From an uncultured bacterium (GTDB taxonomy: Bacteria; Patescibacteriota; Minisyncoccia; Phycocordibacterales; PALSA-1337), in contig CAIKAN010000014.1 of NCBI GenBank assembly GCA_903825415.1, positions 1 through 45,370 of the forward strand: a stretch of DNA of 45,370 bases, in the 5' to 3' direction. The translations under genes and the position numbers were made by a program. Of this stretch, positions 30,073 to 33,713 are shown in pieces. How positions within the stretch are numbered: position 1 is the first letter of the stretch; the number at the start of each line of letters is the position of its first letter. The notes under the pieces are model-generated. The model saw only the letters and a list, made by a program, of their open reading frames with translations, did no database searches and was not told where the DNA came from.

Positions 30073-31083
30073 CTAATTGCAACACCCCTTTAAGGGTTCA
30101 TACTCTGGTTTTAGCAATAATTTCAACCAGAGATGTCACATACACACATTGGTCCTGGAGATTGGGCGTGCATCGGGCGCATGCTTCGAGCCGATCATTC
30201 GATACGCGAAATCGCTCGTACACTTGGAAAAAGTCCCGGATCGATTAGTAGGCATGTGAATGAATATGGTGGAAGAGACGGATATGATGGAAAAGAAGTT
30301 CGGAGAAGGAAGCGGATGAAAAGGATTGCTGCCATGGATTGTATACGAGTGATCAAGGGGTCGCTTCTTCGAATGATCAAAAAGAAATTGATCGATCACA
30401 AATCCCCGGAACAGATTGCTGGTGTACTGAAGCGGGTCTCGGCCAGTTCGATATACAGGTACATCAAAGAAAGAGCACCTCACCTCTCAAAATACCTGCG
30501 ATCAAAGAAAGGTAAATACCGAAGACGAAGGGGTACTAAGAAACGTGAAATGCTTCGAGAACAAGCCAAGAAACGACGTATTGATGAGAGGCCGAAGATT
30601 GTTGAGAGGAGAGGGAGAATTGGCGACTACGAAGGCGATACGATGATCGGCAGAGACAAGCGCGTGCGTATTGTCACCTTTGTCGATCGAAGAACTGGAT
30701 ACCTGATCGCCTTCCTTCTTCCGAAAGCAAGCTCTAAGTTACTTACATCTCTCGCACTCAAATATTTTCGACACATACCGAAAAGAAAACAGAAGACGAT
30801 CACCTTCGACAATGGTTTTGAATTTTCTGACTGGGAATCTCTTGAAAAGAAATCCGGCATGACCGTGTATTTTGCGTATCCATATCATTCCTGGGAAAGA
30901 GGAACCAACGAGAACACAAACGGACTTCTTCGACAGTATTTTCCTAAGGATATGGACTTCAATCTAATCAAACCCGAAGAACTTGCACATGCAGTACGAA
31001 AACTAAACAACCGTGAAAGGAAAAGACTTAAATTTTCGAGTCCGAAACGAGTCTTCTGGAAAAGACGCAAGTGTTGCAATTAG
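30073..31083 (+). mobile_element. IS30-family insertion sequence
   Basis: 13-bp perfect terminal inverted repeats ctaattgcaacac / gtgttgcaattag around an intact transposase. Confidence 0.9.
30133..31083 (+). CDS. IS30 family transposase
   Basis: HTH IREIARTLGKSPGSISRHV, GDYEGDTMIGRDKR, FDNGFEFSDWESL, HSWERGTNENTNGLLRQYFPK. Confidence 0.95.
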   Translation: MSHTHIGPGDWACIGRMLRADHSIREIARTLGKSPGSISRHVNEYGGRDGYDGKEVRRRKRMKRIAAMDCIRVIKGSLLRMIKKKLIDHKSPEQIAGVLKRVSASSIYRYIKERAPHLSKYLRSKKGKYRRRRGTKKREMLREQAKKRRIDERPKIVERRGRIGDYEGDTMIGRDKRVRIVTFVDRRTGYLIAFLLPKASSKLLTSLALKYFRHIPKRKQKTITFDNGFEFSDWESLEKKSGMTVYFAYPYHSWERGTNENTNGLLRQYFPKDMDFNLIKPEELAHAVRKLNNRERKRLKFSSPKRVFWKRRKCCN

Positions 31084-31191: not shown

Positions 31192-31818
31192 TTAAGATTG
31201 TACTGCCTCTGGTTCGGGATGATTTGCGAACTGACCGTGGTATCGCGCCAGAATTGAGCTATACCGCTCGATTGCGCCGTAAGCTTCCCCAATCCAGATA
31301 GATTTGAGACGTGAGACATTGATTGGTCGAGCCTCTTCTAGGCTCCTTGCTAGCGAGGCTGCGTCGCTGAACTGGTCAACGTTTGTTACGACCATCCTGC
31401 GCCCTACACAGCCCAGGATAATCGTTGATAGCCCGATCCAGTCAGTTGTCGCAGAAACGACCTCGGGGGTCTCTCCAGCATCGGTCGCTCTTTCCGTGGA
31501 TCGGAGGATCACGCAGACAAGGTCGATCAGTGGAACGCTAGTATGGGCCAGTATCCTCCTGTTCGCTGGTGTATCATCTGCGGTCAATGCAAGTGAGAGA
31601 GATGTCTTTATGGCCACTAGTCCACCCTCATGTTCTTCCAGAATCATTGTACGTTCTCCACCAAATACGGAGACCCCGGACTGTTCAAATGCAGCAGCCA
31701 ACGGCCTTGGTGCTATGATATTCCAGCCGAGTTGGAGATAAAGAGTTCTAGTCAGGACGATTACATCTTCATCATTTTCCGCAAGGAATAATGCCGTTCG
31801 TGCTTGTGATGTGCTCAT
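31192..31818 (-). CDS. stand-alone MGS-like/PurH N-terminal-like domain protein
   Basis: LGWNIIAPRPLAAAFEQSGVSV ... PLIDLVCVILRSTE...GLSTIILGCVGRRMVVTNVDQFSDAASLARSLEE. Confidence 0.5.
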   Translation of the reverse strand: MSTSQARTALFLAENDEDVIVLTRTLYLQLGWNIIAPRPLAAAFEQSGVSVFGGERTMILEEHEGGLVAIKTSLSLALTADDTPANRRILAHTSVPLIDLVCVILRSTERATDAGETPEVVSATTDWIGLSTIILGCVGRRMVVTNVDQFSDAASLARSLEEARPINVSRLKSIWIGEAYGAIERYSSILARYHGQFANHPEPEAVQS

Positions 31819-31833
31819 ATTGTTCTTTCATGT

Positions 31834-32262
31834 TTGTTCTTGTTAGCCGAGACCATACTACTACAGAAATCAGATATTCAACAGCCTCCATTGCCAATTC
31901 CTTTTACGCGAGTAATATGTAGCCAGATAGGAGATGTCCTCCTGGTCTATGCTTCTTCTATAGGAGCATCGTTCAATTCCAATGAAAGGGCCGGTATGCT
32001 GAAATTTAGAGTTGTATTGCACGTGTTCAGGAAGATTAAGTGTGTGAATCCAGAGAACGGTCCGATTCTTGCCCAGTTGAAACGGATGGGTTTTGATGCT
32101 GAATCTTTTAGTAAGGGGACATGTATGATTATCGACCTCTCTGCTGAAGATGAAAGTTGTGCAAAACTCTCGGTTGGACGGATGTGTGTCGATGGTGGCA
32201 GTTTCTTTCTAGTCAATCCTGTCATGGAAGACTATGAGATTGTCAGTGTGACGCGGAGATAA
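31834..32262 (+). CDS. hypothetical protein
   Basis: 142 aa ORF followed by terminator. Confidence 0.5.
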   Translation: MFLLAETILLQKSDIQQPPLPIPFTRVICSQIGDVLLVYASSIGASFNSNERAGMLKFRVVLHVFRKIKCVNPENGPILAQLKRMGFDAESFSKGTCMIIDLSAEDESCAKLSVGRMCVDGGSFFLVNPVMEDYEIVSVTRR

Positions 32263-32393: not shown

Positions 32394-32620
32394 AAAATGG
32401 AAAACCCTACCAGATTGGTAGGGGCCGCGCGAAGTGAGGGAGGAAAGAAGAAGGAAGAAAGGACCGAAAGAACTGGGTGAAAGTGAATGAAAGGACGAAG
32501 AGATATGAGTTGGAGGTGTTACGTTGACACCGCTGAGAGTACCTGACGAATGTCTGGGTAGGCCAACTTAATCTCGTAGTCTTCTCGATCTTTTTCTTTC
32601 CTCAAAGAACTATTTACTAC
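32394..32620 (-). ncRNA. candidate structured small RNA (about 225 nt, rod-like)
   Basis: minus-strand TTGACT-16-TATACT promoter, long complementary arms, 3' hairpin ccctaccaatctggtagggtttt; no ORF. Confidence 0.55.
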
Positions 32621-32626
32621 ACCCAT

Positions 32627-32654
32627 AGTATACGCGAATAAAGGAAAAAGTCAA
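32627..32654 (-). promoter_or_regulatory. promoter of candidate sRNA
   Basis: TTGACT-16 bp-TATACT on minus strand. Confidence 0.7.
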
Positions 32655-32759
32655 CTAGACAAGGCCATTCCACCATTTCTTAATTTGCTACATCCACTCT
32701 CAAACAAAAGCAGCTCCAGTAGATTCTGAAGCTGTTTTGGTGAATATGATGCGATCACA

Positions 32760-33293
32760 CTATTCCCTTTTTGTTCTAGATCCTCCAGACCTTAAAAGAT
32801 ATTTTCCAGGCTCATCATCTAGATCCATGAAATTGTCAGCTGCCTCAATGAGCTTCGCTGAGGTAGATTTGCCGAAGGAGACGACTTCAACCTGGCAGCC
32901 TTGATTCATCTGCAGGTATTCTACGAGTGGCACGAAGTCCCCGTCTCCTGTGATGAGAATGACGGAGTCCAATTTTGGTGAAAGTTTAACAGCATCGATC
33001 GCAAGCCCTACATCCCAGTCAGCCTTCTTGGCGCCGGAGCTGAAGATCTGGAGGTCCTTTACTTTCGTCTCGATGCCCATCTTGGTCAGAGCTTCAAAGA
33101 AGGCGTTCTCTTCGCCGGATTCCGTGGCGATTACGTATGCGACCGCGCGGACAAGCTTGCGCTCATCGAGCGCATCTTTGACGATCTGTCCGAAATTGAC
33201 CTTTGAATGATATAGATTCTTGCCGCTGTGATATAGATTTTGCGCATCGATATAAACGCCGACGCGCTGTTCCTTGTGTTTTATTATTGCCAT
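32760..33293 (-). CDS. NYN domain (LabA/DUF88-like) protein
   Basis: VGVYIDAQNLYH, KADWDVGLAIDAV, DSVILITGDGDFVPLVEYL. Confidence 0.9.
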   Translation of the reverse strand: MAIIKHKEQRVGVYIDAQNLYHSGKNLYHSKVNFGQIVKDALDERKLVRAVAYVIATESGEENAFFEALTKMGIETKVKDLQIFSSGAKKADWDVGLAIDAVKLSPKLDSVILITGDGDFVPLVEYLQMNQGCQVEVVSFGKSTSAKLIEAADNFMDLDDEPGKYLLRSGGSRTKRE

Positions 33294-33446: not shown

Positions 33447-33713
33447 TTACTTCTTGAGATCCATCTTCTTCAAGATAGCTGTATAGCGTCGAGGGAAATT
33501 CTTGCGGAGATAGCCCAAATGGGTCTGGCGATCGGCGACCATGCCGAGCAAACCGCGTCGGCTATGATTGTCCTTTTTGTGCTTCTTCAAATGCTGGGTC
33601 AATTCATCGATCCTTTTGCTCAAAATGCCTATCTGAACTTCAGGAGAGCCTGTGTCTTTGTCGTGCATGGCGACTTCCTTCATAACTTTGGTCTTTTGGC
33701 GTGTTGATAACAT
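33447..33713 (-). CDS. rpsO: 30S ribosomal protein S15
   Basis: DTGSPEVQIGILSKRIDELTQHLKKHKKDNHSRRGLLGMVADR. Confidence 0.97.
   Translation of the reverse strand: MLSTRQKTKVMKEVAMHDKDTGSPEVQIGILSKRIDELTQHLKKHKKDNHSRRGLLGMVADRQTHLGYLRKNFPRRYTAILKKMDLKK

Follow-up and report, generated by a model that had tools for sequence, protein, structure and literature searches.

A candidate orphan small RNA gene with a CU-rich 3' half next to a purS-like gene in a Patescibacteria genome

Genetic context

The DNA analysed here, referred to as the window, is the whole 45,370-nt stretch formed by one contig (C14) of a 99-contig, 1.05-Mb draft genome that is 94.5% complete; among named organisms, Candidatus Taylorbacteria / Paceibacterota stand nearest to it. 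A candidate small RNA (sRNA) gene was found on the minus strand in a 497-nt intergenic region, between a gene for an NYN-domain protein, which is directly preceded by rpsO (33447-33713), and a convergent purS-like gene (Table 1). As the NYN-domain gene has a terminator-like site of its own, the sRNA gene looks like a separate unit.

Two other genes are found nearby. One, at 30133-31083, encodes an IS30-type transposase (HTH_38 and rve domains) and lies about 1.2-1.3 kb from the candidate sRNA. The neighbouring one, at 31192-31818, encodes a hypothetical 208-aa protein that appears vaguely PurH-like by eye. Sequence searches of this protein against Pfam, NCBIfam and PDB gave no match and its single-sequence AlphaFold model was worthless (pLDDT 32), and on these grounds the idea of a purine regulon shared by this gene and purS was dropped. 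A relative of purS was detectable in only one (G029) of the 53 other genomes of the family, where it occurs in a different context.

Table 1 Positions of the features discussed in the text. Positions are those of the window, except for the pnp leader element, for which the locus is named.
Feature	Position	Strand	Basis or remark
Sigma-70-type promoter	32627..32654	-	-35 TTGACT, 16-nt spacer, -10 TATACT; 10/12 consensus matches
Predicted sRNA transcript, ~221 nt	32400..32620	-	both ends inferred: start ~7 nt past the -10 box, 3' end in the U tract
Intrinsic terminator	32405..32423	-	CCCTACC-AAT-CTGGTAGGG stem, i.e. CCCTACC-AAT-GGTAGGG, then TTTTCC
Purine-rich 5' arm of rod, GAGGAAAGAAAAAGATCGAGAAGAC	32579..32603	-	inverted repeat with 32440-32464; MFE fold
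Pyrimidine-rich 3' arm of rod	32440..32464	-	inverted repeat with 32579-32603; MFE fold
CU-rich 3' half, proposed target-binding region	32430..32522	-	pyrimidines make up 82% of the 92-nt segment 32522-32431; partly unpaired in ensemble
Predicted pairing site 1, sRNA nt 125-135	32486..32496	-	GUCCUUUCAUU; complementary to purS -15..-5
Predicted pairing site 2, sRNA nt 154-164	32457..32467	-	UCGGUCCUUUC; complementary to purS -12..-2
35-codon ORF over purine arm	32519..32626	-	ATG 32626 to TAA 32519; MGVVNSSLRKEKDREDYEIKLAYPDIRQVLSAVST
Terminator-like site of NYN-domain gene	32711..32734	-	terminator search
NYN-domain protein gene, upstream neighbour	32760..33293	-	PF01936, E 4.6e-35
purS-like gene, convergent downstream neighbour	31996..32262	+	PF02700, E 4.6e-8
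pnp leader element, examples	L041:3805-3873, L037:5310-5392, L047:3604-3686, L072:4714-4782, L107:4082-4149, L102:4012-4068		

Promoter, terminator and predicted transcript unit

The promoter is present on the minus strand where the earlier note on this DNA had placed it, with its TTGACT box at 32654-32649 and its TATACT box ending at 32627. About 200 nt downstream on the same strand lies the terminator hairpin, which was likewise found as described. The U tract that follows the stem is short (U4), and termination at this site may be leaky. Given just these four residues, and a convergent purS gene whose end is about 140 nt beyond the terminator, transcription might run on into purS, whose expression would then be lowered by antisense RNA or by collision. 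The hairpin is nevertheless stable and a predicted purS terminator is placed between it and purS, and such read-through appears quite unlikely.

A unit was defined as a promoter with at least 10 of 12 consensus matches together with a terminator of at least 7 pairs and a T-rich tail, the terminator lying 60-400 nt past the promoter on its strand. When the intergenic region was subjected to 1000 dinucleotide shuffles, a unit arose in one of them; these thresholds were set after the feature had been seen, so that the resulting p is optimistic. The unit at the sRNA is the sole one in the window, and only three ORF-free units occur in 522 kb comprising the window and the loci of 80 relatives. The region thus carries the sequence signals of an independent sRNA, namely its own promoter and an intrinsic terminator with no long ORF, and the proposal of a candidate small RNA gene with both signals is backed by this layout and by how seldom such units occur.

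The earlier note had reported that there is no ORF, but a 35-codon ORF with an ATG start does exist and runs over the purine arm. The locus could accordingly be read as a short mRNA with a functional 35-residue product and a 3' part that is untranslated region, as the ATG start and the hydrophilic, protein-like composition of the product would allow. However, the ATG abuts the -10 hexamer and lies upstream of the expected transcription start at about 32620, no Shine-Dalgarno (SD) sequence was found for it, and its product has neither a Pfam match nor a homologue among the genomes of 54 relatives. Open frames of 35 codons are, besides, common by chance alone. The ORF is probably not translated, and a short mRNA is regarded as very unlikely.

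Fold and sequence composition

The whole predicted transcript folds better than its shuffles (z -2.8 to -3.1). Without the terminator z was -2.7, or -2.5 when the two halves were shuffled separately, corresponding to p of about 0.01-0.02; the fold of the sRNA is real, not dramatic. Both the MFE and the ensemble fold consist of several short helices and a one-sided CU-rich loop. The two arms of the rod form an inverted repeat of 25 nt with 76% complementarity, and the internal hairpin described earlier is seen in the MFE fold as GGUGU..ACACC. The complementarity between a purine-rich 5' half and a pyrimidine-rich 3' half that had been claimed for this RNA was confirmed as far as the arms are concerned, but the halves pair only in parts. 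The rod is in fact asymmetric, its 3' strand carrying a CU tract of about 40 nt that is mostly unpaired (about 32495-32452).

The pyrimidine extreme of the window, 75 of 90 nt, falls inside the 3' half of the sRNA, and the long one-sided CU/AG asymmetry of the sRNA is unique within the window. The motif UCCUUUC occurs twice in the CU-rich half.

Comparison with known RNA families

The Rfam scan that had been suggested as a check was run at gathering and at permissive thresholds and disclosed no RNA family in the sRNA stretch. The sole permissive match was to a snoRNA model (E 1.8) and was discarded as chance.

The candidate had been likened to a 6S-type rod, that is, an RNA that would mimic an open promoter and sequester RNA polymerase. 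A length of about 220 nt, an own promoter and an overall rod-like fold would fit such a function, and since no 6S RNA was detected in this family of genomes the role may be vacant: RF00013 was absent at E up to 1 from 54 of 54 family genomes, in a search that recovered it in 5 of 14 control genomes, including E. coli and B. subtilis. Against this assignment, cmscan of a 461-nt stretch with permissive filters did not return 6S even with an E limit of 10. Neither the MFE nor the ensemble fold shows the 6S architecture of a closing stem, a roughly symmetric central bubble and a terminal stem-loop, the bulge being the one-sided CU tract. Furthermore, 6S RNA, which engages the sigma-70 holoenzyme and serves as template for pRNA, is normally conserved within a genus, unlike the candidate (see below). 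The resemblance did not hold up, and a 6S-type RNA is considered highly improbable.

The Rfam SRP models do not match the sRNA stretch. In the 94.5% complete draft, neither 16S rRNA nor the small SRP RNA (RF00169) was detected. The genome carries RNase P RNA at another site, which rules out that the candidate is a displaced copy of this RNA. Narrow literature searches combining Patescibacteria with 6S RNA, and candidate phyla radiation with small or noncoding RNA, found little, the former only mitochondrial SRP work and the latter only TIGR-Tas work.

Conservation and the locus in relatives

In blastn searches of 54 family and 397 order genomes the only credible match to the sRNA was its own copy; the other matches were 20-40 nt long, and those inspected lay mostly in protein-coding sequence. 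A single-sequence covariance model (R1) applied to the same genomes found no credible relative. Its best other matches, of 18 and 15 bits, overlap predicted ORFs, are at chance level over 397 genomes and were set aside. Searches of phage sequences and of IMG/VR with the sRNA gave no match. The stretch after the NYN gene was compared in about 28 genomes and contained pnp or unrelated genes, never the sRNA, and the gene order downstream of NYN differs in nearly all relatives.

As no homologue in sequence or structure was found among the 54 family and 397 order genomes, there is neither covariation nor any indication of selection. With no credible copy in these genomes and other contents after NYN, the sRNA is an orphan. 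The earlier note had taken conservation in relatives as a test of the candidate, and at the level tested (blastn, covariance model, synteny) none was found. Many sRNAs are lineage-specific, and conservation is supporting evidence that is not strictly required. The candidate is best read as a free-standing sRNA gene specific to the species or to a narrow lineage.

The main competing explanation is that rearrangement has recently affected this intergenic region and that a functionless promoter and terminator came together there by chance. The missing conservation is in line with it, as are the variability of the site after rpsO-NYN in relatives, the nearby IS30-type transposase gene, a fold significance of only about p 0.01 and the post hoc thresholds. 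The occurrence of such a unit in only 0.1% of shuffles and the CU/AG asymmetry found nowhere else in the window speak against it, and a chance origin, while a serious contender, is on the unlikely side.

The spot between the rpsO-NYN pair and pnp was observed to be variable, the small gene cassettes it holds differing between nearly all genomes. Downstream of NYN, Bro-N was recognized in L005 (by Pfam) and in L010, L017 and L024 (by resemblance), ORF6N in L013 (by Pfam; L016 and L025 are also listed with it), and a Phd/YefM-like antitoxin in L006 (below the Pfam cut-off; L022 and L028 are also listed with it).

A conserved element upstream of pnp

A conserved hairpin with internal loops, with the consensus GCCTCCGGATAGGCAGATTTGAA...TTCAAGTCTGAAATCTGNAGGC, was observed directly upstream of pnp in relatives. 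The alignment of 13 such leaders contains 21 pairs, 15 of them with compensatory changes, and the covariance model built from these sequences matched about 33 loci in several Paceibacteria lineages (examples in Table 1). An ORF starting like PNPase follows shortly after the match in all loci but L106, where the contig ends; the PNPase-like start was flagged by a script motif in 20 of the 33 loci and judged by eye from the N-termini in the rest. No match to the element was found in Rfam 15, and it looks like an undescribed element, perhaps serving autoregulation by PNPase. It is absent from the window, in which the gene after NYN is not pnp. This leader is a side finding, and one of more weight than the candidate sRNA.

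Predicted pairing with purS

Targets were scored by ungapped pairing and accessibility against start regions, with 120 start regions sampled from the window plus some 100 kb on further contigs. In a duplex scan permitting long gapped duplexes, accessibility costs swamped the scores. Among the 30 annotated start regions of the window purS ranked first, with a net value of -9.0 kcal/mol (the next being -5.2), and it also outscored all of 300 pieces from coding interiors. In the set of 120 it ranked second, the first place being taken by a misassigned in-gene start of a TrmD-like ORF. Pairing at -15..-7, the ribosome-binding site, was also predicted for several more start regions of high rank.

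The two predicted sites in purS are 11 bp each, overlap and together span -15..-2, over the ribosome-binding site. Since 6 of 60 block-shuffled sRNAs (about 10%) equalled the purS score, CU-richness alone may explain the match. An SD-like motif is present in only 5 of the 30 start regions of the window, and G029, the sole other family genome with a purS relative, has neither the sRNA nor the pairing site. The case for purS as a target, through masking of its ribosome-binding site, is suggestive only.

Discussion

The findings taken together are best explained by a lineage-specific CU-rich sRNA that would mask ribosome-binding sites, with purS as its likeliest partner, and the probability of this explanation is put a little short of even. 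RNA polymerase would start at the TTGACT/TATACT promoter and stop at the CCCTACC hairpin, making an RNA of about 220 nt. In this RNA the purine 5' arm would fold back onto the CU-rich 3' half, but only onto part of it, and a CU-rich stretch with the UCCUUUC motifs would stay partly open. This stretch could then pair with ribosome-binding sites of the GAAAGG type and block translation, most likely that of the mRNA of the adjacent convergent purS. Transcription, the two ends, the mode of base-pairing and purS as a target are all inferred from the DNA. The narrower proposal, that in this reduced-genome Patescibacterium a lineage-specific base-pairing sRNA controls the adjacent purS via the duplicated UCCUUUC seed, is rated as unlikely.

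At present the value of the sRNA is that of a concrete, testable orphan candidate. If verified, a stand-alone sRNA would indicate lineage-specific RNA regulators even in such small genomes.

Of the known RNAs, 6S RNA (RF00013 and relatives) has a similar length, an independent promoter and an elongated fold in common with the candidate, which differs from it in having no covariance-model match, no closing stem with central bubble and no conservation. Bacterial SRP RNA (RF00169) is also an elongated hairpin RNA and was itself undetected elsewhere in the draft, but the candidate does not match the SRP model, and inspection showed neither the conserved GGAA loop nor the AGCAG internal loop. If real, the candidate would be an independently transcribed base-pairing sRNA, a known kind of regulator, without a family. 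RsaE and LhrC are trans-acting bacterial sRNAs in which C/U-rich seed motifs mask SD sequences. The candidate has no sequence relationship to sRNAs of this type, being a single-copy orphan of a Patescibacteria genome with targets that are predicted only, but it resembles them in its own promoter, its intrinsic terminator, its repeated CU-rich motif and its pairing, here predicted, with ribosome-binding sites.
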